A stretch of DNA of 24,104 nucleotides, taken from positions 1-24,104 of IMG/VR virus record IMGVR_UViG_3300030329_003116; one strand, 5' to 3'. This document shows, piece by piece, positions 3,618 through 19,585 of the stretch (the stretch's first letter is position 1; each line of letters starts with the position of its first letter). This stretch comes from a virus. Below the pieces are notes generated by a model that had not been told where the DNA came from, made no database searches, and worked only from the letters and a program-made list of their open reading frames with translations. Position numbers and translations under genes: made by a program.

Positions 3618-4064
3618 ATGGCGATGGATAAGAGGGCGAAAAATGAACTCGGCAATCGGTACGCATCACTGGAGGTTGTGGCACCAGCAGAGAGTGAAGG
3701 TGCCGGGGCGATGTGGATCTGTCTTTGCGATTGCGGTGAGTTCGTGAAGATGCGCGCAGCATCGCTGCGCCGGGGATACAACAAGGACTGCGGTTGTGGG
3801 ATCTCGGGGTTTAAGAAACTCCAGGATGCTTTGGTGGATATTGGGACACCACCCTGCGAGAAGGGTTGCGTTTACGTTGATAGGTGTGCTGCGGAGGAAA
3901 TGGCGTGCCAGCAGTTCAGATCCTGGTACGAATGGGGAGGAGATATTGATCCAATGCCAGATTTATACAGACCGACCAGGCAATGCTACGAGGCAATCTT
4001 CCGTGACAAACAGCAGAAACAAGGGCGCAAGCGGGGAGCGCGAGGTCGCAAAGATACTCCGTGA
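3618..4064 (+). CDS. Cys-rich zinc-ribbon phage protein
   Basis: A 148-aa protein with two Cys-rich halves. Residues 12-60 (NRYASL...WICLCDCG...CGC) match the zinc-ribbon-like module often attached to HNH or AP2 domains in phage proteins, with Cys35, 37, 39, 58 and 60 as likely ligands. Residues 80-106 (Cys80, 84, 90, 97) form a second pattern seen in small phage proteins of unknown role. The C-terminus (about 131-147) is very basic. DNA binding is a reasonable inference, but no nuclease motif is present. The start could be the ATG at 3618 or at 3624. Neither has a good Shine-Dalgarno, because the iteron cluster runs almost up to the start. The 3' end overlaps the nuclease gene by 62 bases. 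Confidence 0.6.
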   Translation: MAMDKRAKNELGNRYASLEVVAPAESEGAGAMWICLCDCGEFVKMRAASLRRGYNKDCGCGISGFKKLQDALVDIGTPPCEKGCVYVDRCAAEEMACQQFRSWYEWGGDIDPMPDLYRPTRQCYEAIFRDKQQKQGRKRGARGRKDTP

Positions 4065-11193: not shown

Positions 11194-11291
11194 CCCTTTT
11201 AGGGTCCAGAACCTTGTGACCAGGTAGGTCACCGCTGACGAGCGTTAAACGTAGAAGGGTCCGAAAGGACAGCCCCTCGAAAAACAAAGGC
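11194..11291 (+). ncRNA. Structured leader RNA before the capsid gene, unknown type
   Basis: Four hairpins follow each other after the scaffold stop: CCCT/AGGG (11194-11204), GTGACC/GGTCAC with a 5-base loop (11216-11232), CGCT/AGCG with loop GACG (11233-11244), and GTCC/GGAC with a GAAA tetraloop (11259-11270). They run straight into a terminator. A cis-acting regulatory or processing element is plausible; no known RNA family fits. Confidence 0.4.
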
Positions 11292-11318
11292 CCGGCGCAA
11301 GCCGGTTTTTTTATTTTT
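11292..11318 (+). terminator. Terminator between scaffold and capsid genes
   Basis: CCGGC (11292-11296) and GCCGG (11301-11305) with a GCAA tetraloop form a 5-bp stem, followed by seven T's, an A and five more T's. It lies 17 bases upstream of the capsid start and may set the scaffold-to-capsid ratio or shield the capsid message. Confidence 0.75.
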
Positions 11319-11334
11319 CGATGAGGTACATCTC

Positions 11335-12449
11335 ATGGCCTATACAGGCAATAAGTGGTATGCACAGCAGTACCAGGATGCCGTTCTGCAGTTGGCACAG
11401 CAGAAGGGATCGAAACTGCGTAACCTGGTCTTCACGAAGACCGCAAACTCCGAGAAGGTCAATTTCGAGCGACTCGGATCAACGGCGGCCGTTTCCAAAA
11501 CGACCCGCTACACGGATACGCCCAACGTGGAGATGACTCACTCAAGGCGTACCGTCACCCTGGCCGACTACCATTGGGCCACTATGCACGACTGGACAGA
11601 CGATGTCCGTATGCTGGTGGATCCCAAAGGTTCGTACACCAAGTCTGGTGCCTGGGCGATGGGGCGTGCAATCGATGATCTCATCATCGCTGCCGCTACT
11701 GGCAACGCTGTCGACGGTGACGGTTCTACTGTGGCACTGCCTGCTGGGCAGAAGATCACGGAGTCTGGAACCGCTGGCATGACTCTGGCAAAAATTCTTG
11801 AGGCCAAACGCATCTTGGATGCGAACGAGGTCGAGAATGAAGACCGTTGTTTCATCATCGGTTCGCGTCAGTTGGAAGACCTCTTGAACGTGACTGAAGT
11901 CAAGAGTGCCGATTACAACTCTGTAAAGGCACTGGTAGAAGGTCAGATTGACTCCTACCTTGGTTTCAAATTCGTTCGTTCAGAGCGTCTGGCAGTTGCG
12001 TCCAGCAAGCGTTCGTGCATTGCGTTCTCGAAACCTGGTCTCGGTCTTGCTATCGGCAAAGACATGATGACCAAGATCGATGAGCGGCCTGACAAGTCTT
12101 ATGGCTGGCAGGTTTACATGGCATTAAATGATTCTAGTGCCCTCCACTAGTAATAGTGGATGCAAAACTCCGTGAATTCAGAGAAACCCCTAACGTAAAG
12201 ACGAGGGCAACTTTGAGCGAAGCCGCGAAAGCGGAACGTGCAACGACTATCCTTTTTAGGAGTAGGGTCAAGCGACCCGAAGCGCGGAGAACCCCACTGG
12301 GGTTATGACATAGTCTGTTCTGCATTGAAAAATGCAGTAGCCGAAAGGCAGGGTGAGATTAGCGATCTCATTTGAACATTAAAGGGGCAATGCAAGCCAC
12401 GCGCATCGAAGATGAGCGTGTCGTCGAAGTGCAGGCTCACGAAGCCTAA
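11335..12449 (+). CDS. Major capsid protein, gene split by a group I intron (join 11335..12124, 12385..12449)
   Basis: Read without splicing, the frame stops at 12150 after eight intron codons (271 aa). Joining 11335-12124 to 12385-12449 restores the frame and gives 284 aa ending in WAMQATRIEDERVVEVQAHE plus Ala. The exon 2 residues look like the usual C-terminal strand of phage capsid proteins (A/G-x-R-x-E-x-x-x-V-V-E-V). The N-terminal part has blocks typical of podovirus coats: TRYTDTPNVEMTHSRRTVTL, then DDLIIAAATGNA, MTLAKILEAKRILDAN, and LGFKFVRSERL. It builds the icosahedral shell. GAGG 8 bases upstream of the ATG is a good ribosome site. The 3' splice could instead use G12387 (exon 2 from 12388), giving 283 aa with Ser in place of Trp-Ala; the frame holds either way. 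Confidence 0.85.
12125..12384 (+). ncRNA. Self-splicing group I intron (IA2-like, ORF-less) in the capsid gene
   Basis: A 260-nt intron with every core helix visible. P1: exon GGCAU (12120-12124) pairs with GUGCC (12137-12141), giving the U-G pair at the 5' splice site. P2: 12143-12149/12154-12160. P3: CUCCGU 12168-12173 with GCGGAG 12284-12289. P4: UCAGAG 12178-12183 with CUUUGA 12211-12216. P5: 12188-12191/12204-12207. P6/P6a: 12217-12241 with a GAAA loop. P7: GACUA 12245-12249 with UAGUC 12311-12315. P7.1: 12250-12261. P7.2: 12265-12278. P8: 12290-12304. P9, P9.1 and P9.2: 12320-12370. The presence of P7.1/P7.2 and the 3' half closely resemble the T4 td-type introns. There is no room for a homing endonuclease. 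The terminal G is most likely 12384. Confidence 0.92.
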
Positions 12450-12469
12450 TCTTCTCTCTCCTGGGGATT

Positions 12470-12495
12470 GGCGGCCCTTCGGGGCCGCCTTTTTC
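12470..12495 (+). terminator. Strong UUCG terminator after the capsid gene
   Basis: A perfect 8-bp stem GGCGGCCC (12470-12477) and GGGCCGCC (12482-12489) with a TTCG tetraloop is followed by six T's. It lies 20 bases after the exon 2 stop codon, which independently supports 12449 as the true end of the capsid gene. Confidence 0.93.
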
Positions 12496-12512
12496 CTTAC
12501 TAATCGAACATC

Positions 12513-13127
12513 ATGGCATTTTCAAAACTTTCAATTATTAACGATGCGCTGACCCTCTTAGGTGCTAACCGCATCACATCATTGACCGATGGCAGCACTG
12601 AATCTGCTGTGATGAACCAGATCTTTGACGGTATCCAGGACGCGGTGATTCGCGCGTACCCCTGGAACTGTCTGACGCAACGTACTCAGTTGGTTGCGTC
12701 GACCTCTACTCCCGCATTCGGATTCGACTATTCGTATCCGCTGCCGACAGATCCCTATTGCGTTCGTGTCCTTGAGATGAACGAAACCACGAACCTAGAT
12801 GTGTGGAAGGTGGAAGGGCGTAATCTGTTGACTGATGCGGGTACTTGCAAGATCCGCTATATCGGTAGACCTGACTCACTCGGTGAGATAGACGGTCTTC
12901 TGGCGCAAGCACTCGCAGCACGCCTTGCAGCAGATGCGGCTTACACCCTGGTTCAGTCGAATGGTGTCGCACAACTGATGTTCCAGTTGTATCAGAGCAA
13001 ACTCGCCGAAGCGCAATCCATCGACCAGATCGAATCGTCGCGTGATCACTTTGTCTCGACCCGCTTTGAAGAAGCGCGTGCAGGCATCGATAGCAACGGC
13101 ATTCGATTCGGTCGGGCCTGGTGGTAA
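12513..13127 (+). CDS. Tail tubular protein A-like (T7 gp11-like adaptor)
   Basis: A 204-aa protein, close to the 196 aa of T7 gp11. The N-terminus (SKLSIINDALTLLGANRITS, then AYPWNCLTQRTQL) matches the family pattern of a short helix, L-G, D-G-S and a P-W-N near residue 50. The C-terminal half is helical (LLAQALAARLAADAAYTLVQ). It should form the ring joining the portal to the tail tube. The ribosome site is weak, and a terminator lies just upstream, so expression depends on read-through or a local promoter that I cannot place. The next gene starts directly after the stop codon. Confidence 0.78.
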   Translation: MAFSKLSIINDALTLLGANRITSLTDGSTESAVMNQIFDGIQDAVIRAYPWNCLTQRTQLVASTSTPAFGFDYSYPLPTDPYCVRVLEMNETTNLDVWKVEGRNLLTDAGTCKIRYIGRPDSLGEIDGLLAQALAARLAADAAYTLVQSNGVAQLMFQLYQSKLAEAQSIDQIESSRDHFVSTRFEEARAGIDSNGIRFGRAWW

Positions 13128-15692: not shown

Positions 15693-17597
15693 ATGAAGAT
15701 TCCTAAATTTCAGTACAGCGTCAGCCCATCCATGTCGGGGGCTTATTCGCAGCCGGTAATGCGAGCAGCACCGACGATGCGGAGGGCCGAGGAATATGAC
15801 GAAAGTAAATTTCTGCGGAACCCTCGGGCCGGACAGCGCAATATGCAATTAGAAGTGCAAGCGGTTCTGGACCAGGCGAAGCCGATGACTGCGCTTGTGT
15901 CGGGCGCGCAACAGATCGCGGAGACTTTTGCAAAAGCCGATGCCGAGGAGCAACTGACCACCGCTAATCTTAATTTGCGCACTGAAGTCGAGCAGATGCT
16001 CGCAAACATGAAGGCAATGCCGATTGCGCGAGAGCAATCAGAGATTGATGGGTATACCGGTCAGGTCAATAGCACCTGGCAACCGGTGCATAAGACTTCT
16101 TACAAATCGTTTAATGCGTCCTTGATTCACGCACGCGACAGAATCGCGAAGGGCATGAGTCGAGTATCGCGGGATGCGTTCCTTAAAGGATCGGTCAATT
16201 ACATCGCGCAAGCCCAGGCCGAAGCCGCTTCAGTCAATCGCAAGCAGCACATCAAATATTTACAGGGCCGTGTTTACGATCAATTTGAGGCTGCACAAAC
16301 CGATGGTCAGATTGAGGAGATTAAAAACTCTCCCCATGCGCAACTTGCGTTTGACCCTATGGAATTGTCCAAAATGGCGCAGAAGCGGCATGAAGCCCTG
16401 GCAGTCGATTATTTTGCAACTGAAATCATTAAAGCCGATTCTGAGAATCAGTTAGAAATGGTTAGAGATCGTTTGGAAGGAACTGACGACTCCCAAGTAG
16501 GTGATGACGGTGTCTATATTCAGACACCAGACCAAGTGCGAGCCTATGCTCATCTGGAGCATCTGGACGGTGAAGCCAAGATGGAACTCCTGGGCAAGAT
16601 TGAACAAAGGATGGAGGCGTTTGAAAAAGCAGATGAGGAGAGGCTAGAGAATAACTTTAAAGATTTAGTCGATCAGATTTACGCGAACAACGGTGACCCG
16701 GAATTGTTCAATTCTGAGGTCTACGCGCAAAAGATCGCTGATGATGACATTGCCGAGGATGCCCTCAAAAAATTGGAGGATCATCAGAAGCGTGCGATCA
16801 AAATGAGCGGCACCGTAATCGAATCAGATCCAGAACTCGAAAATAAAATTCTTGGCGATATTTCTAACGACGACTACAGCGTCGAGAATCTGCAGGCAAT
16901 GCCCCTGGAGCAGGGTTTCAAGCAGAGAATGATTGAGGAGCGCAGAAAGTATGACCGCACCAGCATAATCTGGTGGGACAAAAGCAATCCAGACGGTATC
17001 AAGGGTCATCTGGCGAAAGAGATCCTGGAGGATGCCTTCATTCCAAGTCCTCAGTTTCTGGAATTCATGCCAGGCCAGGCGCGTGCAAACATGATGAAGC
17101 GCATGAACGCGGCCATGATTGAACTGATTGAATACGCGGATGAATTGCAGCAATCAGATATTCCAAACAAAGAGGTGCTCGACAAAATCTATGACAGAGC
17201 GAAAGAGTTAGCCGATAAGGAACTTAATCGCACCACCGTTAGCAACAACGTCAAAGGAGTGGGGAATACACACCCGCAGGCGTTTGGTGGCACTGAAGAT
17301 CAATGGGCAGACTTTACAAATTGGCAAGTTGGAAATCTCAAGTTAGGTCCAGATGGCAATAAAAAGCCGACTTATGATTTTGTAGAAAGCATGAAGCCTG
17401 GGCCGCAGCGGGATGCTCTGGCAACCAAGTTTGCCGAGTTTGGCTGGGAGTTTAAGGCTGGCTTTATTGGTGAACGTCAATCACCGGAAGAACTGCAAGA
17501 GGAGATCGAAGCGGCCGGGGGTGCTGATAACTGGATTCTGAAAGAAATGAAAAAAGTGCTGCACGACTACAAAAGTTGGTTGGGGTTAGATGAATGA
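15693..17597 (+). CDS. Internal virion / ejection protein, T7 gp15-like position
   Basis: A 634-aa, almost wholly alpha-helical protein rich in Glu, Lys and Gln with few hydrophobic runs. It lies second in the ejection-protein block, as gp15 does in T7. The N-terminus (about 1-45) is Ser/Arg/Pro-rich; the middle has repeated helical hairpins (for example AVDYFATEIIKADSENQLEM and MELLGKIEQRMEAFEKADEE). I see no enzyme motif. A role in the periplasmic DNA-ejection channel is inferred from position and composition. The start ATG abuts the preceding stop, and the stop overlaps the next gene by 4 bases (ATGA). Confidence 0.62.
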   Translation: MKIPKFQYSVSPSMSGAYSQPVMRAAPTMRRAEEYDESKFLRNPRAGQRNMQLEVQAVLDQAKPMTALVSGAQQIAETFAKADAEEQLTTANLNLRTEVEQMLANMKAMPIAREQSEIDGYTGQVNSTWQPVHKTSYKSFNASLIHARDRIAKGMSRVSRDAFLKGSVNYIAQAQAEAASVNRKQHIKYLQGRVYDQFEAAQTDGQIEEIKNSPHAQLAFDPMELSKMAQKRHEALAVDYFATEIIKADSENQLEMVRDRLEGTDDSQVGDDGVYIQTPDQVRAYAHLEHLDGEAKMELLGKIEQRMEAFEKADEERLENNFKDLVDQIYANNGDPELFNSEVYAQKIADDDIAEDALKKLEDHQKRAIKMSGTVIESDPELENKILGDISNDDYSVENLQAMPLEQGFKQRMIEERRKYDRTSIIWWDKSNPDGIKGHLAKEILEDAFIPSPQFLEFMPGQARANMMKRMNAAMIELIEYADELQQSDIPNKEVLDKIYDRAKELADKELNRTTVSNNVKGVGNTHPQAFGGTEDQWADFTNWQVGNLKLGPDGNKKPTYDFVESMKPGPQRDALATKFAEFGWEFKAGFIGERQSPEELQEEIEAAGGADNWILKEMKKVLHDYKSWLGLDE

Positions 17598-19585
17598 CAG
17601 ATCAAGATCAAAGTCGAATTGATCAATTCACTGCGACCCAGCAGGCAGAAAATCAGTTAATGATCGACTACCTGGATCAGGTAAATAAAGAAGAATTTGA
17701 GATCACTGAACAGGAACTGTTCAACGATCAAGGCTGGATCACCGCGAGTCGGGTACTGCATGAAGCCAACACCGGCAATCAGTTTGATGGCACTGACGAA
17801 GACGCGGCGCGTTACGGACTAGAGGAGATGGGAAAGATCAACTACTCCTGGTTTAACGTGGATATGCCCTGGACCGAGGAAGACTCAAAAGGTCTGGTCG
17901 GTTACATGATGGACATAGAAAACAAGTTCACCGACCGTCAGAAACTTGCGCTGATGCTGCTTTACGATACCTATGAAGCAAAGGATGGTTTTTTCGGTTC
18001 TGGTGCTGGGTGGTGGCGTGCCACAAAAAACATGGCGCAAGACCCTTCAAATTACTTTGGTGTCGGCGCGTTAGCATCATTGGGCCTAAAGTTCTTAGGG
18101 CGTGAAACGGCAAAGAGCGGTTTCAAACTTTTCCTTGAGAACTCTGCAAATTCAATATTGTCTAAGACAGGTATGGGAATTGCGGTTACTGAAGGTGCTG
18201 CATATGGTGCCAGTGATTCCATCATGCGCCAGGAATTTGAAGCCGACCTGCAAGATGAGCATTTTCCGATTTCTGAATATCTGAGTGCGGAAACATTTTT
18301 TGGGGCTGGGGCTGGCGCACTTTTACCGGGAACAATGGTTGGCGCTCCGACCGCAGTCAAAACTGCGATCACAAAATGGAACGATAGAACAGGGCCGCTG
18401 CCTAAAGTACCGGAAGATAGACCGGACCTGGTAATCGTCGAGGAACCCATTAAAGATAAGCGACCACGCACGATGACCGAGACCATCCTGGAGGATGTCG
18501 GTGATGCAACGCTTACTGAAAAGCGGGTGGTCGTTGATGAAGGAAAGGTCGACGTTGATGCCGAAAACTTTAACTTTCCAGAACTTCCCAAGACGATCCC
18601 CGATGACGATCCGCGAGTATCCATAGATACGCAGACAAAGCATAAAAAATCGGTCGGGGAGCAGACAGAGTTTTTCAATCCTACGTTCGGGCACCAGGGT
18701 GTGCCGCAGTACAAAGCGGCACGCAAAAAAATTCACGACCGCATTATTTTTAACACGGTCAACGTCAAGGGTAGTCGGGTTGCCGAGGGTGAAAAACCGA
18801 TTGTCGTGTTTATGGGTGGAGGTGGAGGATCTGGCAAAACTACTGTTCAAAAAGCAGCGATCAAAAGTGGAAGGATGCCAGACCGCAGTTACGTCACTAT
18901 CAATCCAGATGATGTGAAAAAGGGTTTACCCGACTATAAGAAAGTGCGGCGCGCAGGGGATTACAGGGCTGCAGAAATTGTGCATGAAGAATCCAGCGAT
19001 GTTGCAGATATGGCACTAGCCCAAGCAGTCCAGGAGAATAGAAACATCGTGATCGACAAGACGATGGCAAACCCAGGCAAGAATCTCGCTTTAATGGAAC
19101 TGCTAAGACAGAAAGGCTACGAAATTCACTTCTTAGGGGTCACCATTGATCCAGCAACAGCCGCAAACAGAAACCTGGGCCGGTTCTATAACTCCGGTCG
19201 ACTGCCTCACCTGCAGGCAATGGTGCGGTCTCACAAGGCGTTTAATGCAAACGCGATACAGTACCTGGAGGCTGCCGATGTTGGATCACTGATGGACAAC
19301 ACAGGAAACTCAGTCACATTGGTCGCAGAAAAAACACCGGAGGGATCGATCAGCGTATCTGATGCTGATCTCTTAGATATAATCCTTGGTAGAGGTCAAT
19401 TAGATGAAAACTCAAAAACCATCCGACAACTCCGAGAGTCGGGAGTCGACGCCAGTGCCAGCGTTTCCAGAGGAGATCTGGAAAGAAGCCCTGGAGGAAA
19501 CCCGCAGACAGGAGAAGAAGGACAAGGGGCCGCCGGTCCTCTGGCCGATGAACGACTGATTGAACCAGCAGCGGGGGCATTCTGA
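17594..19585 (+). CDS. Ejection-type protein with zeta-toxin-like kinase domain
   Basis: A 663-aa protein of two parts. Residues 1-260 resemble an ejection protein: acidic N-terminus, then glycine-rich hydrophobic stretches (about 154-168 and 233-250) likely to enter membrane. Residues about 370-575 form a zeta-toxin/PezT-type P-loop kinase: Walker A GGGGGSGKT (408-416), INPDDVKKGLPDY (436-448), Glu465 in EIVHEESSD, NIVIDKTMANP (484-494) and a late ANRNLGRF segment. Known zeta toxins phosphorylate UDP-N-acetylglucosamine and block wall synthesis; this substrate is unproven here. No epsilon-type antitoxin gene is next to it. A 60-residue low-complexity C-terminus overlaps a small ORF in another frame. 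The ATG overlaps the gp15-position stop, and TGATG joins it to the next gene. Confidence 0.75.
   Translation: MTDQDQSRIDQFTATQQAENQLMIDYLDQVNKEEFEITEQELFNDQGWITASRVLHEANTGNQFDGTDEDAARYGLEEMGKINYSWFNVDMPWTEEDSKGLVGYMMDIENKFTDRQKLALMLLYDTYEAKDGFFGSGAGWWRATKNMAQDPSNYFGVGALASLGLKFLGRETAKSGFKLFLENSANSILSKTGMGIAVTEGAAYGASDSIMRQEFEADLQDEHFPISEYLSAETFFGAGAGALLPGTMVGAPTAVKTAITKWNDRTGPLPKVPEDRPDLVIVEEPIKDKRPRTMTETILEDVGDATLTEKRVVVDEGKVDVDAENFNFPELPKTIPDDDPRVSIDTQTKHKKSVGEQTEFFNPTFGHQGVPQYKAARKKIHDRIIFNTVNVKGSRVAEGEKPIVVFMGGGGGSGKTTVQKAAIKSGRMPDRSYVTINPDDVKKGLPDYKKVRRAGDYRAAEIVHEESSDVADMALAQAVQENRNIVIDKTMANPGKNLALMELLRQKGYEIHFLGVTIDPATAANRNLGRFYNSGRLPHLQAMVRSHKAFNANAIQYLEAADVGSLMDNTGNSVTLVAEKTPEGSISVSDADLLDIILGRGQLDENSKTIRQLRESGVDASASVSRGDLERSPGGNPQTGEEGQGAAGPLADERLIEPAAGAF
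19404..19559 (+). CDS. Possible small overlapping gene (51 aa)
   Basis: This ORF lies in the +1 frame inside the 3' end of the zeta-kinase gene. Its ATG has GAGG nine bases upstream. The product is charged and compact (PAFPEEIWKEALEETRRQEK, then KDKGPPVLWPMND). Its codons look at least as phage-like as those of the Gly/Ala/Ser-rich frame it overlaps. No family is recognised. It might be a real nested gene, or mark a former frameshift in the larger gene's tail. Confidence 0.4.
   Translation: MKTQKPSDNSESRESTPVPAFPEEIWKEALEETRRQEKKDKGPPVLWPMND

Follow-up and report, generated by a model that had tools for sequence, protein, structure and literature searches.

A group I intron of type IA, 260 nt long, splits the major capsid gene on a DNA fragment of 24,104 nucleotides from an uncultured bacterial virus (IMG/VR record IMGVR_UViG_3300030329_003116), the whole of which was analysed and is referred to here as the window. 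We consider it highly probable, with a likelihood of roughly nine in ten, that this element is a T-even/Twort-like intron that removes itself from the capsid mRNA and persists as a nearly neutral, mobile passenger. Under this reading, two GTP-initiated transesterifications would excise the intron from the late capsid mRNA and join U12124 to G12385, so that a full-length capsid protein of 284 residues could be made. A stop codon (12148-12150) would release ribosomes ahead of the catalytic core, a pattern shared with other phage introns. The intron was presumably acquired by horizontal transfer and is tolerated since it excises itself, its arrival owing either to reverse splicing into a plentiful late mRNA or to past homing with an endonuclease acting in trans.

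Identity and boundaries of the intron

The original prediction, made by inspection of the DNA, had placed a compact group I intron at 12125-12384 (+) and called for an Rfam scan. A cmscan of the whole window returned RF00028 (Intron_gpI) as its sole match, at 12090-12337 (+), with 83.9 bits and an E-value of 2.6e-20 over the complete model (1-253); the curated cut-off is 50 bits. The exact ends are set by the joined reading frame and the intronless relatives. At the 5' splice site, U12124, the last base of exon 1, forms the anticipated U.G pair with G12137. At the 3' end, the omega-G is G12384, the final intron base, which alone among five ends tried preserves the frame and every residue of the relatives. 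The four others (12385, 12386, 12387 and 12374) were rejected, as they lose the frame, run into an early stop or miss the W/F residue of the relatives. The predicted ligated junction consists of ...GGCAU followed directly by GGGCAAUG...

Two extra hairpins, P7.1 (12251-12260) and P7.2 (12265-12278), lie between the 5' strand of P7 and the 3' strand of P3 and assign the intron to subgroup IA, with the IA2-like layout that had been proposed; the finer IA1/IA2 label is provisional. The interval 12125-12384 holds no homing-endonuclease-type ORF, again as foreseen. The ORF list includes no forward ORF of 60 aa inside it, the only ORF there being antisense and 63 aa long, and the intron thus does not have the homing endonuclease of its own by which a mobile intron would be recognized.

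Secondary structure and covariation

All of the helices from P1 to P9.2, claimed earlier to be pairable, were located on the + strand. P1 (12120-12141) pairs the exon sequence GGCAU (12120-12124) with the internal guide GUGCC (12137-12141), and P2 (12144-12159) pairs 12144-12149 with 12154-12159; both are drawn from the sequence and from the MFE fold. P3 (12168-12289, formed by 12168-12174 and 12283-12289) encloses P4 (12178-12183 with 12211-12216), P5 (12188-12191 with 12204-12207), P6 (12217-12218 with 12238-12239), P6a (12223-12226 with 12231-12234), P7.1 (12251-12252 with 12259-12260) and P7.2 (12265-12269 with 12274-12278). Pair counts over 41 cores define all of these, and P7.2 shows covariation in all its pairs. 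P8 (12290-12304) comprises six pairs, every one of them changed on both sides. P9 (12320-12326 with 12331-12337), P9.1 (12340-12342 with 12347-12349) and P9.2 (12354-12359 with 12365-12370) are taken from the MFE fold. The guanosine-binding helix P7 (12245-12315) is a pseudoknot, beyond what the folding program can draw, between GACUAU (12245-12250) and AUAGUC (12310-12315); it is 100% paired in the 41 cores, with a compensatory change in one pair.

Folding of 12119-12390 without constraints gave an MFE of -96.2 kcal/mol (z -5.6), a value as low as which was reached by 0 of 200 shuffles, and the resulting structure draws P1, P2, P3, P4, P5, P6, P6a, P7.2, P8, P9, P9.1 and P9.2. Covariation was assessed on the 41 cores, a dereplicated set of related sequences aligned by MAFFT from sequence only. 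Of all cells, 96.2% are paired; both partners have changed in 25 of the 42 pairs, and covariation scores 0.509, compared with 0.150 for shuffled and 0.036-0.105 for slid controls.

The split capsid gene and its product

Exon 1 (11335-12124, +) codes for residues 1-263 plus the initial base of codon 264, and matches both PF19821 (Phage_capsid_2, E 8e-73) and phrog_3437 (major head protein, E 2e-74). Exon 2 (12385-12449, +) supplies the remainder of codon 264 through residue 284 and the stop. Joining the two, as join(11335..12124, 12385..12449), extends PF19821 coverage from 3-274 to 3-292 of 293 positions and lifts the 245.6-bit score to 259.5 bits. The claim that the joined exons restore a capsid C-terminus is thereby borne out: the 284-aa product ends in VVEVQAHEA, as do the closest capsid relatives, L001 and L002, whose C-terminus is identical throughout the part encoded by exon 2. 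Also correctly predicted was a strong terminator 20 bases past the capsid stop, which ends at 12449; the stem of this intrinsic terminator (12470-12489, +; 8 G-C pairs and then a T-run) begins at 12470.

If the intron were not removed, reading from the capsid start would meet an in-frame TAG at 12148-12150, within P2 and upstream of the core, and would yield a 271-residue product. In an AlphaFold model of the intronless L001 capsid (pLDDT 81), which is HK97-like and has 9eg4 (LME-1 phage capsid) as its nearest structure, splice residue 264 falls within the strand 258-271. Since exon 2 encodes the rest of that strand and the entire last strand (277-283), the unspliced product would lose both, and on this model the truncated protein should not fold properly. 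These results bear on the idea that the intron is dead and that the virus either uses or suffers from the truncated capsid, for which the open frame ending at 12150 could be cited. With one beta-strand cut and the last one removed, with the core helices and invariant positions of the intron all intact, and with exon 2 still encoding precisely the residues found in the relatives, we regard this as highly improbable.

The capsid gene belongs to a head module of podovirus-like type, which comprises terminase, portal (PF12236), scaffold-like, capsid, tail tubular and internal virion proteins. An HTH (Cro/CI-like) gene resembling a repressor (421-1449, -) points to a temperate podovirus-like phage, and MAGs of Alphaproteobacteria contain capsid relatives at 41-49%. 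Elsewhere in the window, a large protein encoded between the internal virion protein genes (17594-19585) contains, over residues 396-554, a zeta-toxin-like/P-loop kinase domain (PF06414, E 5e-33) and has a weak match to a minor head protein profile. A putative PDDEXK-type phage endonuclease (3796-4410; PF24608, E 7e-13) is overlapped by a cysteine-rich 148-aa ORF (3618-4064) with no Pfam match.

The empty site in relatives

L001 and L002, at 90% amino-acid identity, are intronless and have the same terminator as the window; exon 2 differs from L001 by two synonymous changes and nothing else. None of the 73 fetched relatives that span the site carries an insertion at residue 264, and cultured phages with a PF19821-type capsid had the gene matched in one piece among the matches listed. 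A second contig with the intron at this site was not found with two sub-lineage patterns, which returned only L207 (described below), and no match was obtained in plasmids.

The window is a 24-kb fragment, and the intron at the residue 264 site rests on one assembly, which raises the question of whether another phage's intron was joined to the capsid gene by misassembly. Its occurrence at this site in one contig only is what such an error would produce. Against this, the two flanks line up without gap or shift against the uninterrupted site of the relatives, the ends conform fully to what is expected of a group I intron, and the guide GUGCC suits the exon GGCAU while differing from the guide of the sister intron. 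An artefact of this kind we consider the least credible of the explanations weighed here.

The original prediction went on to propose that the intron could act as a timing or stress sensor. Such a retained regulatory switch would time the capsid, or tie it to the GTP level or to active translation, through the rate of splicing. Group I introns do require guanosine, translation-dependent splicing of the T4 nrdB intron has been discussed (PMC11878797), and the unspliced reading ends just inside the intron. The distribution does not favour such a role, as relatives 90% identical work without the intron, the site is empty in all 73, and introns at other capsid sites belong to other lineages. Nor is there an added RNA domain: a permissive scan of 11200-12520 with all 4227 Rfam families returned no family other than RF00028 at E<1, and a riboswitch or sensor family in this interval was rejected. 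The intron therefore shows neither the sensor domain nor the lineage-wide conservation that would identify a ligand-gated or regulated intron, and we judge the switch to be very unlikely. Absence from all 73 relatives, together with the lack of a sensor domain or endonuclease, points instead to an acquired and probably near-neutral mobile element.

A sister intron in an unrelated capsid gene

Scanning for the P3-P4 sequence of the window intron recovered L207 (IMGVR_UViG_3300009481_002012), a contig of 4.9 kb. Its SU10-type capsid gene (350-2400) contains four ORF-less introns, matched by RF00028 at 483-704, 849-1062, 1177-1407 and 1835-2045 (the four scores being 88.2, 71.9, 70.7 and 60.5 bits), and its joined exons give a full-length PF17236 match (positions 2-292 of 292, E 2.6e-80). 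Intron 2 of this gene is the sister of the window intron (support 100/95), with 84% identity over the full intron. Both are ORF-less and located in major capsid genes, but the capsid family (PF19821 in the window, PF17236, SU10_MCP, in L207) and the insertion site differ. The exon flanks are unrelated, the 5' exons having only GC(A/G)U in common, and the guides (GUGCC in the window, GCGCC in L207) differ by one compensating base.

Reverse splicing into a plentiful mRNA is a route of entry that would suit the unrelated flanks of these sister introns, although a review notes that this route is without direct evidence so far (PMC3984707). The main competing account of entry is collaborative homing, that is, movement at the DNA level by an endonuclease encoded elsewhere. 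Free-standing endonucleases that mobilise ORF-less introns are known in phages (PMC3984707), and as the window is incomplete, the gene for such an enzyme could lie outside it. No homing endonuclease family was detected among the window proteins scanned, a set that left some small ORFs aside, and no donor of the intron was found. Five differences fall in the last 26 bases upstream of the insertion site, and co-conversion as a mark of recent homing was considered and rejected, given that an equal density is seen in 257 of the gene's 830 25-base windows; there is thus no co-conversion excess beside the insertion. Furthermore, ordinary homing does not explain a sister intron at a non-homologous site with unrelated flanks. 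Collaborative homing seems to us a possible but rather unlikely route.

Recurrence of introns in capsid genes

Within PF19821 capsid genes, introns were found at four sites, namely that at residue 264 and three others, which are occupied in other capsid lineages. The latter are near residue 60 (L153, L159 and L148), after residue 197 (L049, L050, L053 and L023; ORF-less, ~245 nt, 93.5 bits) and near residue 277 (L091, 96.4 bits). A shortened residue-197-site intron occurs in the PF19821 capsid gene of L015 (3240-3420, on a contig shared with L160; 44.6 bits). It is without the 3' half of the core (the 3' strands of P7 and P3, and P8), and represents either a dead capsid-gene intron or an assembly error.

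A core-motif scan of virus contigs yielded at least 122 introns of the window intron's clade, with host genes identified by family scans of the exons and, for several, extended to a whole sequence cluster from the representative that had been scanned. Major head protein genes host 44 of the 122 introns listed (36%) and belong to seven PHROG families. Among the matches listed, 16 are in phrog_1328 (SU10_MCP), 11 in phrog_267, 8 in phrog_3437, 4 in phrog_371, 2 each in phrog_1357 and phrog_9953, and 1 in phrog_1005; other hosts are RNA polymerase (12), ribonucleotide reductase (~10), terminase (~10), scaffold (4) and tape measure (4). By distinct core sequence, 29 of the 96 listed are in capsid genes. 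Short viral contigs tend to be retained when they bear hallmark genes, which over-represents such genes and inflates the capsid share: among the matches listed, it is 37 of 74 on contigs under 20 kb versus 7 of 48 on those of at least 20 kb. For this reason the 36% figure is not taken at face value, and we do not claim that a third of all such introns reside in capsid genes. What is robust is that capsid genes rank among the commonest hosts of the clade. Judging from the exon assignments, at least seven protein families have had their major capsid genes entered by introns of this clade.

The window intron's clade is not alone in this trend. Capsid is also among the commonest hosts of another clade of group I introns from viral contigs, defined by the pattern AAGGTTCARAGACTA (L210-L329): capsid genes supply ~13 of its 102 upstream exons, a sum taken across PHROG tallies that overlap, compared with 12 of 102 for photosystem II D1. 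Supported sister groups spanning unrelated genes involve introns in L105, L192, L132, L147, L157, L082 and L185. Sister introns occupy a phrog_1357 capsid and an SU10 capsid (99/95), phrog_9953 and phrog_267 capsids (96/83), and a PF19821 capsid and a gene tentatively assigned as an SU10 adaptor (98/82). These groups suggest repeated jumps of introns between virion genes.

The survey matters more than the single intron, as it repeatedly finds compact introns in genes for the major capsid protein, spread over at least seven families and several positions per gene. This recurrence weakens a 'metabolic on-switch' as a general explanation of phage introns, and the sister introns in unrelated capsid genes offer concrete pairs with which to test ectopic movement of ORF-less group I introns. 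A broader speculation, which we consider doubtful, is that ORF-less group IA introns pass as RNA from one phage to another, unrelated one by reverse splicing into whichever late transcript is most abundant, with capsid genes of unrelated families serving as the chief stepping stones. If true, it would explain how sister introns of PF19821 and SU10 capsid genes come to share only GC(A/G)U at non-homologous sites, and would account for the four PF19821 sites and the capsid gene with four introns.

Comparison with known phage introns

The placement in a capsid gene had been called unusual, a description that does not stand, for capsid is the most frequent assigned host among the introns listed and there are precedents. 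In the Lactococcus phage Tuc2009, the major head protein gene mp4 carries an annotated group I intron, like the capsid gene of the window. The mp4 intron has a 26-nt identical stretch in common with the window intron; it differs in carrying an HNH endonuclease, and the capsid protein and host are other than the window's. In the mycobacteriophage LittleE (Cluster J), removal of an intron from the major capsid gene has been proven by RT-PCR and protein sequencing (PMC3706429). LittleE is likewise a tailed phage but unrelated to the window's, and its intron is 819 bp long, contains a reversed endonuclease gene and is classed as 'most likely group I' (PMC3706429). Group I introns of capsid genes are therefore already known, and the window intron is another case. 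In the literature searched, from which subscription papers and bioRxiv preprints were mostly absent, no systematic report of their recurrence in capsid genes was found.

The 3' half of the intron had been likened to the td-type introns of T4. The kinship with T-even introns holds, with the better match being to T4 nrdB (74% identity over 12235-12379, E 7e-14) and a weaker one (72%, E 2e-8) to a td intron from a T4-like phage. The P7.1/P7.2 layout of the window intron is likewise typical of td-type introns. Unlike the window intron, those of T4 nrdB and td interrupt genes of nucleotide metabolism and carry endonuclease ORFs or their remnants.

The introns of Bastillevirinae are, like the window intron, phage group I introns of IA type, and some of their genes hold two or three (PMC11878797). 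They differ in residing in nucleotide- and DNA-metabolism and terminase genes and in averaging 802 bases (PMC11878797). The same 2025 study asks why genes of nucleotide and DNA metabolism alone are colonised (PMC11878797), and given that question, the recurrence of these introns in capsid genes may surprise specialists.
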